NCBI GenBank assembly: GCA_947302895.1
Contig: CAMYWU010000001.1
Span: 1 to 28,121 of the forward strand
DNA length: 28,121 nucleotides
Direction: 5' to 3'
DNA from: an uncultured Clostridia bacterium
Lineage (GTDB): Bacteria > Bacillota > Clostridia > Oscillospirales > Acutalibacteraceae
Part shown: positions 13,140 to 25,028 of the stretch, piece by piece
Position numbering within the stretch: the first letter of the stretch is position 1
Layout: every line of letters starts with the position of its first letter
The notes under the pieces: generated by a model
What the model was told of the DNA's origin: nothing
What the model saw: the letters and a program-made list of their open reading frames with translations, nothing else
Databases searched by the model: none
Translations under genes and position numbers: made by a program

Positions 13140-14366
13140 ATGGCTAAACAGGGTGAGCTTTCCCCGATGATGAAGCAATACTTTCAAATAAAGAAGGATT
13201 ACCCCGGCGTTATTTTATTCTTCCGCCTCGGTGATTTCTACGAAATGTTTTTTGATGATGCAAAAACTGCCTCGAAGGAGCTTGATCTGGTTCTTACGGG
13301 CAGGGATTGCGGTCAGGAGGAGAGAGCTCCTATGTGCGGAGTTCCTTTCCACAGCGCAGACAGCTATATTGCAAAGCTCGTATCCCGAGGATACAAGGTT
13401 GCAATCTGCGAACAGACCGAGGACCCGAAAGCCGCAAAGGGCATCGTTAAAAGAGACGTTATAAGAGTTATAACTCCGGGAACGGTTATCGAAAGCAACA
13501 TCCTTGAAGATGGAGTTAATAATTATCTTTGCTCAATCTGCAAGGGCGATAATGAAACGGGTATGTGCTTTGCGGATGTTTCAACGGGTGAGTTTCATAT
13601 AACCGTTATAAACGGCGAAAACGAGGAAGAAAAGATTATAAATCAGCTTTCAACCTATTCGCCAAAAGAAATCATTGTTAATTCTGCGGCGTCTGCGCTT
13701 GATAACGTTCAGCGCTTTGCCTCGGTTCGCCTTTCCTCATCATTTGAAAAGCTTGAGGATGAGAACTTCGATTTCAATAATGCAACCGAGCTTATACTCC
13801 AGACCATAAGCAAGGAGGAAATCTCCTCCCTCGGTATTGGTCATAGCAAGGCTGCGGTAAGTGCGCTCGGTGCAGTTATCTCGTATCTTCGCAATACACA
13901 GAAAACAGACAGAATTGAAGCGCCAAGCGAGCTTGATTTTTATGATAAAGACGATTTTATGTCGCTTGATATCAGCGCAAGAAGAAATCTTGAGCTGACA
14001 AAATCAATGATGAGCGGAGATAAAAAGCATTCGCTTCTCTGGGTTGTTGATAAAACAAAAACTGCAATGGGAAAAAGAATGCTCCGTTCGTGGATTGAAA
14101 GACCGCTTGTTAACGTAACCAAAATAACAAAGCGCCAGAACGCTGTTGCAGAGCTTTTCGATAACGAGCTTCTCAGGGACGACCTCAGAGAAGCGCTGAC
14201 GGGAATAAACGATATTGAAAGGTTGCTTTCAAGAATTGCATATTCAACTGCAAATGCAAAGGAGCTGAGGTCGCTTTCCTCGGCTATCGAGCATTTCCCG
14301 ATTATCAAAAACAGACTTGAAAACACCTCCTCTTCAATGATTTGCTCGAGGATGTTAAATCGCTGA
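13140..14366 (+). CDS. mutS: DNA mismatch repair protein MutS, N-terminal piece (frameshifted)
   Basis: The first 408 residues of a MutS split by a one-base frameshift. The mismatch-recognition domain is complete, with the F-x-E motif at F33 and E35 in RLGDFYEMFFDDA. The connector domain and the beginning of the lever/core domain follow (SLDISARRNLEL, WIERPLVNVTKI). The true MutS sequence ends near LENTSS at about 14333; the remaining residues (SMICSRMLNR) are out of frame and end at TGA 14366. This piece lacks the ATPase and cannot function alone. The gene continues in another frame at 14342-15748. Joined with one added base, the two pieces give 869 residues, the normal MutS length. The ribosome binding site AAAGGAGG is excellent. 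Another ATG at 13135 is out of frame. Confidence 0.9.
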   Translation: MAKQGELSPMMKQYFQIKKDYPGVILFFRLGDFYEMFFDDAKTASKELDLVLTGRDCGQEERAPMCGVPFHSADSYIAKLVSRGYKVAICEQTEDPKAAKGIVKRDVIRVITPGTVIESNILEDGVNNYLCSICKGDNETGMCFADVSTGEFHITVINGENEEEKIINQLSTYSPKEIIVNSAASALDNVQRFASVRLSSSFEKLEDENFDFNNATELILQTISKEEISSLGIGHSKAAVSALGAVISYLRNTQKTDRIEAPSELDFYDKDDFMSLDISARRNLELTKSMMSGDKKHSLLWVVDKTKTAMGKRMLRSWIERPLVNVTKITKRQNAVAELFDNELLRDDLREALTGINDIERLLSRIAYSTANAKELRSLSSAIEHFPIIKNRLENTSSSMICSRMLNR

Positions 14367-15748
14367 TAGACAGCGCAATTGTTGATGAGCCCCCGTTCAG
14401 TCTTCGTGAGGGCGGACTTATCAGAAAAGGCTTCAATGCCGAAATTGATGAGCTGAATGATATAGTCGGCGGAGGTACAAGCCTTCTTGCCGATATTGAA
14501 GCAAGAGGAAAGGAAAAAACGGGCATACCAAAGCTCCGTGTTTCATATAACAAGGTTTTCGGCTACTTTATTGAGGTAACAAATTCATATCTTGATTTAG
14601 TTCCCGAGGACTACATAAGAAAACAAACACTGACAAACTGCGAGCGTTTCATAACCCAGGAGCTCAAGGAGCTTGAGGGCAAGGTTCTCGGCGCAAAGGA
14701 GCGCCTTGTTTCCCTTGAATATGAAACCTTTGCAACAATAAGAAATCAGATAGCGGGAGAGGCTATGCGTGTTCAGAAAACCGCACAGGCTCTTGCAACA
14801 CTGGATGTTTTTGCCTCCCTTGCCCAGACAGCGTATGAAAACAACTACTGCTGTCCGAGCATAACAAACGATGGAGTTATTGATATTAAGGACGGACGTC
14901 ATCCCGTTGTTGAAACCCTGCTTGATAATGCAGTATTTGTTCCAAACGATACACTGCTTGATAACAATAAAAACCGCTGTTCAATAATCACGGGTCCGAA
15001 TATGGCGGGTAAGTCAACCTATATGCGCCAGATTGCGCTTATAACCCTTCTTGCCCAGATTGGCTCGTTTGTTCCTGCAAAGAGCGCAAGGATATGCGTT
15101 GTTGACGCTATATTTACAAGAGTCGGAGCTTCCGACGACCTTGCAACAGGACAGTCAACCTTTATGGTTGAGATGAACGAGGTTTCATACATCATTAAAA
15201 ATGCAACTGAAAACTCGCTGATTATTCTCGACGAGATAGGCAGAGGAACATCAACCTTCGACGGTATGAGTATTGCAAGGGCGGTGCTCGAATACGTTGT
15301 TAAGAAAAAAACGCTTGGCGCAAAAACTCTTTTTGCAACTCATTACCATGAGCTTACCGCAATGGAGGGAATGCTCGACGGCGTTAACAACTATTCAATT
15401 GCCGTTAAGAAGAGGGGCGATGATATAACCTTCCTTCGCAGAATTGTTCGCGGCGGCGCCGACCAGAGCTTCGGTATTGAGGTTGCAAAGCTTGCAGGAA
15501 TACCAGGCAGCGTTATAAAGCGTGCAAAGGTTATTCTCAAAGAGCTTGAATCAAATAAAATTGAAATAGAATTCAAATCCGATGAGGCTCTTATTGAAGA
15601 GGACGAAACGGATATTCAATATAACTTTAAAACAAATTCAACCGATGATATTCTTGAGCTTATCAAAACGGTTGATGTAAACACTTTAACGCCGATAGAG
15701 GCAATGCAAACTCTATACGACCTTAAAAAGAAAGTTGAAGAATTATAA
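14342..15748 (+). CDS. mutS: DNA mismatch repair protein MutS, C-terminal piece (frameshifted)
   Basis: The remainder of MutS in the -1 frame relative to the first piece. It continues the core/clamp domain (AIVDEPPFSLREGGLIRKGF) and contains the full ABC-type ATPase: Walker A (GPNMAGKST), the YFIEVTN segment, Walker B and signature region (LIILDEIGRGTSTFDGMS) and the THYHEL histidine loop. The nominal start, TTG 14342, has no ribosome binding site, and no other start lies before the conserved domain begins. The sequence homology also runs upstream of it (FNDLLEDVKSL) to about 14333. So this is the second half of one gene, not a separate gene. Either the genome carries a real one-base deletion in the CCTCCTCTTC stretch (about 14326-14335) or the assembly has an indel error. 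Confidence 0.9.
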   Translation: MLEDVKSLIDSAIVDEPPFSLREGGLIRKGFNAEIDELNDIVGGGTSLLADIEARGKEKTGIPKLRVSYNKVFGYFIEVTNSYLDLVPEDYIRKQTLTNCERFITQELKELEGKVLGAKERLVSLEYETFATIRNQIAGEAMRVQKTAQALATLDVFASLAQTAYENNYCCPSITNDGVIDIKDGRHPVVETLLDNAVFVPNDTLLDNNKNRCSIITGPNMAGKSTYMRQIALITLLAQIGSFVPAKSARICVVDAIFTRVGASDDLATGQSTFMVEMNEVSYIIKNATENSLIILDEIGRGTSTFDGMSIARAVLEYVVKKKTLGAKTLFATHYHELTAMEGMLDGVNNYSIAVKKRGDDITFLRRIVRGGADQSFGIEVAKLAGIPGSVIKRAKVILKELESNKIEIEFKSDEALIEEDETDIQYNFKTNSTDDILELIKTVDVNTLTPIEAMQTLYDLKKKVEEL

Positions 15749-18615: not shown

Positions 18616-19839
18616 ATGAAGATGAAAAAAGATACAATTGCAATAATTATCGCAGTTGTTCTTGTTTTTGCATATATTTTCTATCAGTGTTATTCGGTTT
18701 TGCATATAACCTTTGAAACCGAAACTGCGCTTCTTTCAACAGTCTATGAGAAAATAGACACAACGGCGCTTGTTGTCCGTGATGAACATACCATAAGCGC
18801 CGAGGCAAACAAGGTAACTGTTCCGTGCTTATCCGACGGGGATAAAATCAATGTCGGCGGAAATATTGCAATGACCTTTTCCTCAAACGAGGCGGCAAGC
18901 AATTATTCAAAATACCTTGATTTGCAAAACGACCTTAAATATTATGAAAACCTTGAATCCCAGACAGTTGGCCAGGCGGCAAGCGTTGAATCGATTAACA
19001 GCGAAATTGACGAAAACGTAAACACCTTCGTAAGGAGTGCTGCAACGGGAAATGCTCAGAGCCTTGACGACTGCGCTTCACAGCTTGGCGACAGTATTTT
19101 GCGCCGCCAGATGATAATCGGCGAAAATGTTGATTTGATTTCAATCATTCAGGATTTGAGAAAGAAAACCCAGAGCTTTTCCTCATCAAAGCCCGATAAA
19201 TTCATAACAACCAATGAATCGGGAATCTTTTCAAGCTATACCGACGGTTTTGAAAGCCTTGTTGATTATAAAAAGGTTAAGGATATCAGTATTGATGAAA
19301 TAAATGGCGCAATTAAAGAGGTTTCCTCTTCAAAGGAAAAAACCTCGGATTATTTCGGAAAGCTCATAACAAGCTATGCGTGGTATTTTGTCTGCGTTGT
19401 TGACAGCGATTCCGTGCTTAATCTTGAAAACGGACAGAAGGTTCAGGTTGCACTGAAAAATAACGACAGGGATGTTTTCACCGTTCAGATAATAAGCGGT
19501 GCAGAGCCGAAGGCGGGCGAAAAGCAAACGGCGCTTGTTATGAAATCAAGCGTTATGAACTCAAAGCTTGCTTCGCTCAGAAAAGAGGATATTGAAATAA
19601 GAACAAAGTCGCTCGAGGGAATAAAGGCGCCAGCCTCGGCGCTCCACGTTTCCGAGGGCAAAAAGGGCGTTTACGTTCTTGTTTCAAGCCAGGTTAAGTT
19701 CAGAGAAGCCGAGATTGTTTATTCGGAGGGTGATTGGGTGCTGCTTACCTACGACCCCGATTCACCGAATTCCATCAGGCTTTACGATAGAATAATAACG
19801 CAGGGAAAGGAGCTTGAGGATGGAAAGGTTTATACCTGA
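18616..19839 (+). CDS. HlyD-like membrane-anchored protein
   Basis: A 407-residue protein with one N-terminal membrane segment (about 7-26) and a large extracytoplasmic part. The region after the anchor (TALVVRDEHTISAE, then VPCLSDGDKINVGGNIAMTF) resembles the barrel-sandwich/lipoyl-like half of HlyD/membrane-fusion proteins. A helical section (about 95-185) and a later beta-rich part (VLNLENGQKVQVALKN, APASALHVSEGKKGVYVLV) follow. No transporter gene is adjacent, so a classical efflux role is not supported by context. It begins ahead of yggS and the division genes, suggesting a link to the cell envelope or division, which is inference. The start follows AAAGGAG. Its end overlaps yggS by 20 bp, so translation is coupled. 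Confidence 0.65.
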   Translation: MKMKKDTIAIIIAVVLVFAYIFYQCYSVLHITFETETALLSTVYEKIDTTALVVRDEHTISAEANKVTVPCLSDGDKINVGGNIAMTFSSNEAASNYSKYLDLQNDLKYYENLESQTVGQAASVESINSEIDENVNTFVRSAATGNAQSLDDCASQLGDSILRRQMIIGENVDLISIIQDLRKKTQSFSSSKPDKFITTNESGIFSSYTDGFESLVDYKKVKDISIDEINGAIKEVSSSKEKTSDYFGKLITSYAWYFVCVVDSDSVLNLENGQKVQVALKNNDRDVFTVQIISGAEPKAGEKQTALVMKSSVMNSKLASLRKEDIEIRTKSLEGIKAPASALHVSEGKKGVYVLVSSQVKFREAEIVYSEGDWVLLTYDPDSPNSIRLYDRIITQGKELEDGKVYT

Positions 19840-20545
19840 TGAAAAACGCATTGAGCAAACGATTGATAACTACAGGCGGGTTAAAAATCAGGTTGCCGAG
19901 GCGGCAATCAAGGCAAACAGAAACCCCGATGATGTTCGCCTGATGTGCGTTACCAAAACAGTTGAAGCCGAGTATATAAATCCCGTGCTTGATATGGGAG
20001 CGGATTTAATCGGCGAAAACAGGGTTCAGGAATTTCTTGGCAAAAAGGATGCCCTGCATCTTGAAAGGGTTGAAAAACACCTCATAGGTCATTTGCAGAG
20101 CAATAAGGCAAAGCAGATTGTCGGCGAGGTTGATATGATTGAATCGGTTGATTCAATCAAGCTTGCAAAGGAAATCAGCAGGCAATCCGTTATTAAAGAG
20201 GTTAATACAAATATTCTTGTTGAGGTTAATGTCGGCAAGGAGGAAAGCAAGAGCGGAATATTCATTGAAGGGCTTGAGGAGCTGCTTTATCAGATAGCCG
20301 AGCTTCCGAATATAAGGGTTAAGGGCTTGATGACAATTCCTCCGATTTGCGATGAAAACGAAGCAAGAAGGTATTTTGCATCAATGTTTAAATCCTTTGT
20401 TGACATTAAAGATAAAAGAATGGATAATATTGATATGGAAATTCTCTCGATGGGAATGAGCGGTGATTATGAAAGCGCCATTGCCGAGGGTTCAAATATA
20501 GTAAGAGTTGGCTCCGCAATATTCGGAGCAAGAAAATATTTTTAA
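19820..20545 (+). CDS. yggS: YggS-family PLP homeostasis protein
   Basis: A 241-residue protein of the YggS/PROSC (YlmE) family: a single-domain alanine-racemase-like barrel that binds pyridoxal 5'-phosphate and buffers its supply, with no known catalytic activity. The PLP lysine is K46 in LMCVTKTVEA. Other family signatures are GENRVQEFLGK, HLIGHLQSNKAKQI, VNVGKEESKSGI and GLMTIPP, with the phosphate-binding end LSMGMSGDYESAIAEGSNIVRVGSAIFG. The start is ATG 19820, 7 bp after AAGGAG, within the end of the preceding gene; a TTG six bases earlier is less likely. As in B. subtilis (ylmE next to sepF), it lies directly upstream of sepF. Confidence 0.95.
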   Translation: MERFIPDEKRIEQTIDNYRRVKNQVAEAAIKANRNPDDVRLMCVTKTVEAEYINPVLDMGADLIGENRVQEFLGKKDALHLERVEKHLIGHLQSNKAKQIVGEVDMIESVDSIKLAKEISRQSVIKEVNTNILVEVNVGKEESKSGIFIEGLEELLYQIAELPNIRVKGLMTIPPICDENEARRYFASMFKSFVDIKDKRMDNIDMEILSMGMSGDYESAIAEGSNIVRVGSAIFGARKYF

Positions 20546-20563: not shown

Positions 20564-22129
20564 ATGGGATTTTTTGATAAGGTTAAGGATATTTTAAACG
20601 AAGACGACGATAGCGATTTTGAAGAATTCTATGATGATGGCGCATCATCATTCAACAGAGCTTCAAGAAGCAGCAAGGCTGTTGAGCCCCCTGTTTACGA
20701 AAAGGAGGAGCGCACCTCAGAGCGTTCTGCACGCCGTCAGAAGAGCGATAAGGTTGTTAATATCAACACAACCGCTCAGTTTCAGGTTGTTCTTGTTAAG
20801 CCTGAAAGATATGAGGAGGCTGCTGCTATTGCAGACCATTTAAACACAAAGCGCTCCGTTGTGCTCAATCTTGAAAGCACAAACAGGGATATTGCAAGAA
20901 GACTTCTTGACTTTCTTTCGGGCGTTGCTTATGCAAATAATTTTGGAGGAGAATATATTATGATAAGCGCAAACGATTTAAGAAACACAAAATTTTCACC
21001 CGAGCAAAACGGATATAATGTTGACGAGGTAAACGCTGCACTCAGCGAAGCAGCAGAAACCATCGAAGGCTATATCAACGAAAATAAAGAGCTCTATCGC
21101 AAAATGGAGCTTCTTGCAAAGAAGATTGAGGAATACAGAGAGGAAGAGGATTCAATCAAATCCGCTCTCATAACAGCTCAGAAGATGGCTGATAAGCTTG
21201 AAAAGGAGAGCAAGGAAACTGCTGCTCAGCTTATTGACGAAAGCAACTCAACAGCTGAAAAAACCATCGCTGAGGCTAATGAAAATGCAGAAAAAATCGT
21301 TGGCGAGGCAAGAGCTTTCTCTTCAAATCTTATCAACGAAAAAACTCAGGAAGCAGATTCAATTATAGTTGATGCCGAGAAGAAGGCAAATGATGCAATT
21401 AATTCATCAAAGGTTGTTGCCCAGAACATACTTGACCAGGCAAAAGAGATTTCTGATGATTTAATCGAAAAATCAAAGGCTGAAGCTGAGGCATATAAAA
21501 TTCTTGCAAAAACAGTTAAGAGCGATGCAAAGGAGCTTATTGCAAAGCTTATCGCTCTTTACAGCGAACAGCTTGAGGTACTTAACGGCGCAAACCTCGA
21601 CTCCTCCGAGGATAACGAGCAGGAGCAGGAGGTTGAGGAGCTTCACAGCGAGGTTAACTCCCTTGTAAACGAGATGGACGAAATTCAGAGCTCAATTCCC
21701 GAAGAGGTTGTTATTGAAGATAACGACGATGAAGAGGAAGAAGAGGACGACGAAGACGAGGACAACGAGGAAGAAACCGAGGAAGAAGCAGAATACGAAA
21801 AAGAAATTGAAGAAATAGAAGAGCTTGAAGCTGAGGTTGAAGAAGAGCCCCAGGACCCTATGAAGGCCGTTGAGGCATTTTCCGCAGATGAGATAACTCC
21901 TATTGATATTTCATCGGGCATTCCCGAAATCGAAGAGGAAGCAGAGATGGAAGGCGAAGAGGATAAGTCGCTTTTTGATAACGATGGCTCTCAGCCCTTT
22001 GAGTCGTATTTCAACGTAAACTCCTCCGATGCGCATTATGACAGAAGCCAGACTATTTCGTTGGTTCCGCCCGAGGATGATGAAGACGACCAACCAAAAT
22101 TCAAGGGCTTTTTCAATAAAAAGAAATAA
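20564..22129 (+). CDS. SepF-DivIVA fusion protein (cell division)
   Basis: One 521-residue reading frame that joins two normally separate division proteins. Residues 1-125 are SepF: the amphipathic membrane anchor MGFFDKVKDIL, a variable linker, then the core (AQFQVVLVKPERYEEAAAIA, LDFLSGVAYAN). The SepF core stops short; the final strands expected after FLSGVAYA are missing. From M133 the sequence is DivIVA-like: MISANDLRNTKFSPEQNGY and VDEVNAAL, then coiled coil (about 160-340), and an extremely acidic tail (about 350-460). The bases just before codon 133 form a full ribosome binding site (GGAGGAG). In B. subtilis, ylmG and ylmH lie between sepF and divIVA; here they are absent. SepF ties FtsZ to the membrane and DivIVA marks poles and septa. 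Deletion-born fusion is the likely origin; a chimeric assembly remains possible. Confidence 0.85.
   Translation: MGFFDKVKDILNEDDDSDFEEFYDDGASSFNRASRSSKAVEPPVYEKEERTSERSARRQKSDKVVNINTTAQFQVVLVKPERYEEAAAIADHLNTKRSVVLNLESTNRDIARRLLDFLSGVAYANNFGGEYIMISANDLRNTKFSPEQNGYNVDEVNAALSEAAETIEGYINENKELYRKMELLAKKIEEYREEEDSIKSALITAQKMADKLEKESKETAAQLIDESNSTAEKTIAEANENAEKIVGEARAFSSNLINEKTQEADSIIVDAEKKANDAINSSKVVAQNILDQAKEISDDLIEKSKAEAEAYKILAKTVKSDAKELIAKLIALYSEQLEVLNGANLDSSEDNEQEQEVEELHSEVNSLVNEMDEIQSSIPEEVVIEDNDDEEEEEDDEDEDNEEETEEEAEYEKEIEEIEELEAEVEEEPQDPMKAVEAFSADEITPIDISSGIPEIEEEAEMEGEEDKSLFDNDGSQPFESYFNVNSSDAHYDRSQTISLVPPEDDEDDQPKFKGFFNKKK
20945..20962 (+). promoter_or_regulatory. Internal ribosome binding site and ATG of the former divIVA gene
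   Basis: GGAGGAG (20945-20951) stands 8 bp before ATG (20960-20962), in frame inside the SepF-DivIVA gene. Ribosomes starting here would make a 389-residue DivIVA alone, so both fused and free DivIVA may be produced. The site encodes FGGEYI in the fusion. Confidence 0.75.
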
Positions 22130-22232: not shown

Positions 22233-25028
22233 ATGGATTATAATCAAACACTTAATTTACCCAAAACCGAATTTCCGATGAGGGCTTCCCTTCCTCAGAG
22301 AGAGCCCGAATTCCTTAAAGCGTGGGAGGAAAACAAGCAGTATGAGGAGCTTATGAAGCATAATGCCGATAAGCCTATGTTCCTCCTTCACGACGGACCT
22401 CCGTATGCAAACGGAGATATACATATCGGCCACGCACTCAATAAAACCCTTAAGGATTTCATTGTTCGTTATAAGAATATGACGGGCTTTAAATCCCCAT
22501 ATGTTCCAGGCTGGGATACCCACGGTCTGCCGACTGAGCTTGCGGCAAGAAAGAAGGCGGGCATCAGCGCAACAAGCGACATCAGCGACCTTGAGCTTCG
22601 CAAAATCTGTCGTGAAACAGCGCTTGGCTATGTTGATATTCAGCGTGAAAGCTTTAAAAGACTCGGCGCAATCGGTGAATGGGATAACCCGTATATAACT
22701 CTTCAGAAGGAGTTTGAGCAGGAGCAGATTAAAGTTTTTGCTTCAATGGCAAACAAGGGATATATCTATAAGGGCTTAAAGCCTGTTTATTGGTGTCCCG
22801 ATTGTAATACCGCTCTTGCAGAAGCAGAAATTGAATATGGCGATGATCCCTGCCACTCAATTTATGTTAAATTCAAGGTAACCGATGATATGGGCAAGCT
22901 TGAAGCTCTCGGCGCAGACCTTGATAAAACCTATTTTGTAATCTGGACAACAACAACCTGGACTCTTCCTGCAAACCTTGCAATCTGCGTTGGTCCTAAC
23001 TATGAGTATTCCCTTCTTAAAGCAAACGGCGAATACTATGTTATGGCAACCGACCTTGCAGGCGTTGCAATGGAGGATGCGGGCATAAGCGATTATGAAA
23101 CTGTTGGTATCATCAGAGGTAACGAGCTTGAATATATGAAAACAGCTCATCCCTTTATCGACAGAACCTCGCTTGTTATCGTTGGCGACCACGTAACTCT
23201 TGAAAGCGGAACAGGCTGCGTTCACACAGCTCCCGGCCACGGTGTTGACGACTTCATCGTTTGCAAAAACTATCCTGAAATCCCGATAGTTGTTCCCGTT
23301 GACGATAAGGGCTATTTAACCGAGGAAGCAGGCCAGTTTGCAGGTCTTTCAACCGAGGAAGCAAATAAGCCAATCGCTGAGCACCTTGAAAAAACAGGCA
23401 ATCTCTTTGCTCTTAAAAAGATTAAGCACCAGTATCCTCACTGCTGGAGATGCCATAATCCGATTATTTTCAGAGCAACAAGCCAGTGGTTCTGCTCTGT
23501 TGACGACTTTAAAGACGATGCAGTTAAGGCTGCTGAGGAAGTTAAATGGTTCCCTGAATGGGGTAAGGACAGACTTCAGTCAATGGTTCAGGAAAGAGCC
23601 GACTGGTGTATTTCCCGTCAGAGAAAATGGGGCGTTCCGATTCCTGTTATCTATTGCAAGGATTGCGGAAAAGAGATTATTGATGCCGATGTTATGAATA
23701 AGGTATCCGATATTTTCGGCGAGGAAGGCTCGGATGCATGGTATGCTCACGAGGCTGAATACTTTGTTCCCGAAGGCTTCAAGTGCCCCCACTGCGGAGA
23801 GTCAAACGGCTTTGAAAAAGAAAAGGATATTATGGACGTTTGGTTTGATTCGGGCTCCTCACATTTTGCAGTATGCAAGAACCGCCCCTATCTCAAATGG
23901 CCCGCAGATGTTTATCTTGAAGGCGCAGACCAGTACAGAGGCTGGTTCCAGAGCTCACTTTTAACCTCAGTTGCAGCAGGAAAGGGCGCTCCGTACAGAG
24001 AGATTATTACCCACGGCTGGACCGTTGACGGCGAGGGAAGAAAGATGAGTAAGTCCCTCGGAAACGGTATTGCTCCTCAGGAGGTTATCAATAAATACGG
24101 TGCGGATATTCTTCGTTTATGGGTTGCTTCGGCAGACTACCATGCAGATATCCGTATCAGCCCCGAAATTCTCAAGCAGATTTCGGATAACTACAGAAAA
24201 ATCAGAAACACCGCAAGATACTGCCTTGGAAACCTCTATGATTTTGATCCCGATAAGGATATGGTTTCAAATGATGAGCTTGAAGAGCTTGATAAGTATG
24301 CGCTTATGAAGCTTACCGAGGTTATGGAGGTTGCAAAGCAGGGCTATGATAACTATGAATATCATATGACTGCCCACGCTCTTCATAATTTCTGCGTTGT
24401 TGATATGAGTAATTTCTATTTCGATGTTCTCAAGGACAGACTTTATACAAGCGCTCCCGACTCAGTTTCAAGAAGAGCTGCTCAGACTGTTTTATATAAG
24501 GTTCTTGATGCGCTTACCCTCATTTTAACTCCGATTCTCGCATTCACCTGTGATGAAATCTGGAAGGAAATGAAGCACGATTCATCAAAGGATGTTCGCT
24601 CACCCCTCTTCAATGAGATTCCGAGCGGAAAATATATTGAAACAGATGAAGCCTTCATTGAAAAGTGGGATAGAATCCACGAAATCAGAACTGATGCCCA
24701 GAAGGCTCTCGAGCTTGCAAGAGCCGATAAGATTATCGGTAAGCCCCTTGAAGCAAAGGTAACCCTTTTTGCTGAGGGCGAGCTCAAGGAGTTCCTTGAA
24801 AGCGTAAAAGAAGCGCTTCCCGAAATCTTCATCACCTCCGCTGTTGAGGTTGAAGAGGGAACAGGCGAGGTTAAGGGCGATGTTGAGGGTCTTACACTCT
24901 CTGTTTCAAAAGCAGAGGGCGAAAAATGTGAGCGCTGTTGGAAGTTCACAAGAAATATCGGCTCCAATCCTGCTCATCCGACTCTTTGCGCTTCCTGTGC
25001 AAAAACAATGGAGCTCTTAAATCTCTAA
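22233..25028 (+). CDS. ileS: Isoleucyl-tRNA synthetase
   Basis: A 931-residue class I aminoacyl-tRNA synthetase, full length, that charges tRNA-Ile in the cytoplasm. HIGH is at 64-67 (HIGHALNKTLKDF) and KMSKS at 604-608 (GRKMSKSLGNG). The CP1 editing domain is indicated by WTTTTWTLPANLAI and TGCVHTAPGHGVDD. Cysteine pairs suggest three zinc sites: C188/C191 with C404/C407, C475/C478 with C518/C521, and the C-terminal finger C899/C902 with C919/C922 (CERCW and CASC). The ending fits the bacterial (type 1) form. The start follows AAGGAGCACAG. Upstream there is a tandem repeat, not a T-box leader. The order divIVA-ileS-lspA-rluD matches B. subtilis. Confidence 0.97.
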   Translation: MDYNQTLNLPKTEFPMRASLPQREPEFLKAWEENKQYEELMKHNADKPMFLLHDGPPYANGDIHIGHALNKTLKDFIVRYKNMTGFKSPYVPGWDTHGLPTELAARKKAGISATSDISDLELRKICRETALGYVDIQRESFKRLGAIGEWDNPYITLQKEFEQEQIKVFASMANKGYIYKGLKPVYWCPDCNTALAEAEIEYGDDPCHSIYVKFKVTDDMGKLEALGADLDKTYFVIWTTTTWTLPANLAICVGPNYEYSLLKANGEYYVMATDLAGVAMEDAGISDYETVGIIRGNELEYMKTAHPFIDRTSLVIVGDHVTLESGTGCVHTAPGHGVDDFIVCKNYPEIPIVVPVDDKGYLTEEAGQFAGLSTEEANKPIAEHLEKTGNLFALKKIKHQYPHCWRCHNPIIFRATSQWFCSVDDFKDDAVKAAEEVKWFPEWGKDRLQSMVQERADWCISRQRKWGVPIPVIYCKDCGKEIIDADVMNKVSDIFGEEGSDAWYAHEAEYFVPEGFKCPHCGESNGFEKEKDIMDVWFDSGSSHFAVCKNRPYLKWPADVYLEGADQYRGWFQSSLLTSVAAGKGAPYREIITHGWTVDGEGRKMSKSLGNGIAPQEVINKYGADILRLWVASADYHADIRISPEILKQISDNYRKIRNTARYCLGNLYDFDPDKDMVSNDELEELDKYALMKLTEVMEVAKQGYDNYEYHMTAHALHNFCVVDMSNFYFDVLKDRLYTSAPDSVSRRAAQTVLYKVLDALTLILTPILAFTCDEIWKEMKHDSSKDVRSPLFNEIPSGKYIETDEAFIEKWDRIHEIRTDAQKALELARADKIIGKPLEAKVTLFAEGELKEFLESVKEALPEIFITSAVEVEEGTGEVKGDVEGLTLSVSKAEGEKCERCWKFTRNIGSNPAHPTLCASCAKTMELLNL

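Follow-up and report, generated by a model that had tools for sequence, protein, structure and literature searches.

A single frame joins part of SepF to a complete DivIVA

The window analysed here, a stretch of 28,121 nucleotides, is the whole of one contig (C1) in a draft genome of an uncultured Clostridia bacterium (G000; 254 contigs, 1.6 Mb, 81.6% complete). At 20564-22129 on the forward strand a single open reading frame codes for 521 amino acids without an internal stop, and in it residues 1-126 of SepF run in frame into a complete 389-residue DivIVA. Upstream lies a YggS-like gene (19814-20545; PF01168) and downstream an ORF of 931 amino acids (22233-25028), labelled ileS in the preliminary description of this DNA, which is 88.7-94.4% identical to the syntenic ORF of five relatives. 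The SepF model (PF04472) matches residues 75-126 of the fused protein with 60.7 bits (cut-off 27), and the N-terminal domain of DivIVA (PF05103) matches residues 134-250, corresponding to model positions 1-117 of 131, with 78.4 bits (cut-off 28). Since both matches are far over their cut-offs, and an ATG within the frame corresponds to residue 1 of an annotated DivIVA of 389 amino acids (P0002), the domains of the fused frame are beyond chance. A complete SepF core would cover model positions 1-72; here the match begins at position 1 and stops at 52, bearing out the earlier remark that the core ends early.

The sepF part (codons 1-126; 20564..20941, forward strand) encodes the N-terminal helix, the linker and the first part of the core, and lacks 35 codons at the end of the 161-codon gene together with its stop. 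Its product begins with MGFFDKVKDIL, which forms a helix at low confidence in an AlphaFold2 model and is a candidate amphipathic membrane helix. At the deletion junction (20939..20942, forward strand) approximately 110-130 nt appear to be absent, namely this end of sepF with its stop and a portion of the short spacer after it, and the ends would share a microhomology of about 3 nt (TAA); both estimates derive from the DNA of relatives and the size also from an intact SepF, P0122. Beyond the junction GGAGGAG (20945..20951, forward strand), the ribosome binding site of a free-standing divIVA, now lies within the frame, with 8 nt between it and the in-frame ATG at 20960-20962. From this ATG the complete divIVA extends for 389 codons (20960..22129, forward strand), its product starting at the same Met as P0002 and being identical to it at 382 of 389 positions. 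Purine-rich sites resembling GGAGGAG precede divIVA in relatives too. The preliminary description, which saw SepF joined in frame to DivIVA with the ribosome binding site of divIVA kept inside, is borne out in these respects, and the locus is compatible with the deletion it proposed, which runs from the late part of sepF to a point shortly ahead of divIVA.

Near-identical SepF and DivIVA occur as separate proteins

We searched the fused protein against 5.8 billion proteins and scored the 7988 candidates sharing the most words with it. The best match among those listed (the best 120 of 1011 hits) is P0002, with 4 member sequences on 2 contigs, whose start is the internal Met of the fused frame. 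A search with the SepF part led to P0122 (4 member sequences on 4 contigs), a SepF of 161 amino acids with the usual tail, identical to the window's copy at 125 of 126 residues. The longest contig of each cluster measures 30,445 bp, and on this one ground the genes for P0122 and P0002 probably lie on one contig; going by the sequences, their source assemblies are probably of the same species as G000, and in them the two genes would be adjacent, with a spacer between, as in relatives. Among the best 120 of 1011 hits there is no second SepF-DivIVA fusion of this kind, which would score above P0002, and the window's own fused protein is likewise absent among these matches. A genuine fusion should recur in other, independent assemblies of the species or the genus; what we find instead is P0122 and P0002 as two distinct proteins. 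The presence of intact, unfused genes in close relatives had been named beforehand as the mark of an assembly chimera, and at the protein level this is the state encountered.

A search for fusions of the two proteins, also proposed earlier, gave a divided answer. Two further proteins, P0269 (443 amino acids) and P0280 (386 amino acids), do carry SepF and then DivIVA in a single frame, but in both the SepF is complete; none of the same kind as the window's is among the matches listed. Whether genuine or erroneous, these two frames represent a different event from the fusion studied here. P0269, which comes from a 119.5-kb contig, is matched at E <= 1e-60 by 12 of 394 genomes of the order, all 12 with one or two stops inside the match. 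A conserved SepF-DivIVA family was considered and rejected, the two other cases being single sequences with complete SepF. More widely, 45 proteins of 286-912 amino acids include a SepF part, 42 of them known from a single member sequence and 40 with a longest contig below 10 kb. Their partners vary, with YggS-like and YlmH-like parts among them and others that, by accession, we take to be an ABC transporter, MMPL and Hsp70; such variety would be typical of chimeric sequences, of short errors or of neighbouring genes that have been joined. The literature searched yielded no paper for the term SepF-DivIVA, and nothing useful on FtsA-less Clostridia or Firmicutes.

Gene order around sepF in relatives

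SepF was found in 59 of 60 related genomes, G000 included, while G019 (75% complete) gave no SepF match. In 58 of the 59 other relatives the match extends to position 69 of 72 or beyond, that of G000 alone ending at 52. The draft yielded one copy of sepF; a second complete copy elsewhere in the genome, suggested earlier as something to look for, was not found in the 81.6% of the genome represented, and an intact second sepF in the draft is rejected. In an order-wide survey SepF matches were present in 361 of 394 genomes, with two or three matches per genome in G043, G048, G068, G071, G174, G238, G248 and other members of the order.

None of the 80 named related loci, which are those kept from 316 confirmed stretches, contains a sepF-divIVA fusion. 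In 66 of the 80 sepF lies directly before divIVA, with the DivIVA start, as estimated from alignments, about 14-117 nt past the sepF stop, and in the other 14 the start so estimated lies 330-889 nt past it; the loci overlap with the 60 genomes (contigs of 45,939 and 56,361 are in both), and the two sets of counts are not independent. No YlmG (PF02325) was detected within the genus (37 genomes, among them G000), whereas it occurs in 13 of the order's remaining 23 genomes; YlmH is present in 50 of the 60 genomes. The preliminary description had held that ylmG and ylmH went with the deletion and had proposed a search for them in the rest of the genome: ylmG was indeed not found, whereas ylmH is present on contig C52. 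Given the absence of YlmG from the genus, the YlmH on C52 and the prevalence of sepF directly before divIVA, the deletion did not remove these two genes. As judged from the gene orders, the short sepF-divIVA arrangement predates the event, and what G000 lacks is only some 35 codons with their stop and a portion of the spacer.

The missing tail of SepF and its FtsZ contacts

The lost positions 127-160 (34 in all) comprise 32 that are invariant and 2 that are at least 90% conserved across 23 SepF proteins, hand-picked for this comparison from 120 listed. In an AlphaFold2 model of P0122, whose core has a pLDDT of about 90, two strands and the last helix make up the lost part. In the truncated fusion this core is modelled with a pLDDT of about 42-57, and part of this fall may stem from the unequal runs, as the other rows of the fusion's alignment are misaligned past the junction. 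In a study of C. glutamicum SepF (PMC7118173), double mutation of K125 and F131 abolishes detectable FtsZ binding and complementation. The equivalents on P0122, as placed by an ungapped alignment to the C. glutamicum chain and the six-residue spacing of K and F, are R131 and Y137, and both are absent from the fused frame. The FtsZ-contact residues expected of a SepF past helix 2 thus have their equivalents in the missing tail.

FtsA and the need for SepF

The SHS2_FTSA domain was detected in none of the 60 relatives, 43 of which are at least 90% complete, while it was positive in 8 of 14 control genomes. The FtsA model TIGR01174 likewise exceeded its cut-off in none of the 60; 55 of them show partial matches to it, most of these near positions 160-346. 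FtsZ is present in 52 of the 60. Two papers describe SepF as essential where FtsA is absent (PMC8178401; PMC7118173). With FtsA undetected in all 60 relatives, loss of the only sepF would likely be lethal, and we infer that SepF is essential in this clade. Given also that sepF is the immediate upstream neighbour of divIVA at 66 of the 80 loci, SepF is likely to be what chiefly anchors FtsZ in this clostridial order.

Frame-breaking losses elsewhere in the draft

A further small loss lies within the window itself: in mutS (13140..15748, forward strand; named via a relative's ORF) about 25 nt net are missing near 14340, which leaves the gene divided between two frames; in the five relatives compared the ORF is intact. 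Over 41 stretches of G000, the window included, which cover 549 kb of the 1.6-Mb draft, we found frame-breaking net losses in 6 of 173 distinct conserved genes, as opposed to 0 of 119 in G002 (749 kb) and 0 of 121 in G007 (798 kb), or 0 of 240 in the two controls together (Fisher p 0.005; p 0.012 without a doubtful sixth case); the queries were relatives' ORFs, with G000 tested against those of two genomes and each control against those of one. The sepF-divIVA deletion is not among the six, which are all net losses, of 1, 5, 7, 7, 25 and 32 nt; the 32-nt case, in an ORF of 572 amino acids (L146), is uncertain, since the sequence around it is divergent and the break may be natural. By NCBIfam the relatives' intact ORFs are gyrA, recG, hpt and mutS, and two are without a family at the threshold used. 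The five breaks outside the window lie at about 13164 on C9 (L150), 4367 on C34 (L175), 2188 on C31 (L172), 6797 on C28 (L169) and 2366 on C5 (L146), and the genes concerned are gyrA, recG, hpt and two unnamed ORFs, the last being the uncertain one. For gyrA no match in G000 is over the cut-off, the only match being split between two frames on C9. This gene is essential, and a frameshift in its only copy speaks for error rather than biology.

In the reverse test the ORFs of G000 revealed 0 breaks in 83 against G002 and 1 in 131 against G007, this one being the fused ORF itself. In-frame stops show no clear excess in G000 (11 matches for 125 queries and 3 for 84; controls 8 for 119 and 3 for 121). 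For nine neighbour genes, under labels that we assigned, 536 tests across the 80 loci, window excluded, gave 6 breaks in 4 loci, with one of the six in ileS, and so other drafts are not free of breaks. Those at this same locus in other drafts affect mutS, mutL or ileS (L086, L101, L106 and L083).

Discussion

We consider it probable that the fused frame is the product of a spurious small deletion in the draft assembly and not a gene of the organism, since near-identical separate proteins exist elsewhere and the same draft has other small deletions in conserved genes. Such a deletion would connect an otherwise normal sepF, at its codon 126, with the leader of the equally normal divIVA beside it, with the end of sepF and part of the spacer, an estimated 110-130 nt, missing between them, and the frame would stay open by the chance of the deletion's length. 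The ribosome binding site of divIVA would look 'preserved' since the missing sequence all lies on its upstream side. The deletion may have arisen at the consensus stage, through the joining of a gap or from chimeric reads. Shared ends of approximately 3 nt, the estimate from relatives, would be too little for unaided de Bruijn joining, so that reads or a gap-closing step would have to supply the join; we also considered a repeat-mediated misassembly, for which the join would offer only this 3-nt match.

A real deletion in the sampled strain, which would inactivate sepF while the internal ribosome binding site and ATG continue to yield DivIVA, we regard as unlikely. In such a case the 521-residue product would be a by-product without SepF function. 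The intact start signals of divIVA, the undamaged DivIVA half and the presumed scarcity of homology at the join, as natural end-joining deletions can show, would all suit it, but the copy concerned is the only sepF found in the 81.6% complete draft, its loss would likely be lethal where FtsA goes undetected in all 60 relatives, and the same draft has further small losses, one of them in its only gyrA. A functional SepF-DivIVA fusion, in which a DivIVA coiled coil bearing the N-terminal helix of SepF and half of its core would serve to anchor or position FtsZ, seems to us very improbable. The frame is open, and P0269 and P0280 show that such joins can occur in sequence data; those two, however, keep a complete SepF, whereas here the equivalents of the FtsZ-contact residues are missing, the predicted confidence of the core falls from about 90 to about 50, and near-identical separate proteins are found elsewhere. 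The earlier suggestion of a protein linking FtsZ to a polar or septal scaffold accordingly lacks support, given the missing tail and the low-confidence core. Least probable of all is that one strain of an FtsA-less clade has replaced its only FtsZ anchor by a half-SepF on DivIVA, the polar scaffold holding the Z-ring and free DivIVA coming from the internal start.

Were the fusion true, it would show how distinct division factors can become one anchor-scaffold protein in a single step; if it is an artefact, as we favour, it is a warning that neighbouring genes of an operon seen fused in frame in one draft genome should be checked in a second assembly. Of more consequence may be a side result of the analysis, the likely role of SepF as principal FtsZ anchor of this clostridial order.

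Compared with the FtsZ membrane anchor SepF (PF04472; solved relatives 3zih, 3p04 and 6sat), residues 1-126 are the ordinary start, with N-terminal helix, linker and half core, whereas the fused frame is without the modelled two strands and last helix, as well as the FtsZ-contact equivalents, stopping at model position 52 of 72. Compared with the polar and septal scaffold DivIVA (PF05103), the second part is complete from its own Met and identical at 382 of 389 positions to the free protein, the sole difference being that it is read through from sepF. P0269 and P0280 share with it the order of SepF and then DivIVA in one frame, and differ in having a complete SepF and a short linker and in being single sequences. 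Finally, in Corynebacteriales FtsZ is linked to the DivIVA-type protein Wag31 via Glp/GlpR (PMC10522489); there, too, the divisome is physically tied to a DivIVA-type scaffold, but the link is built by separate proteins without a fusion.
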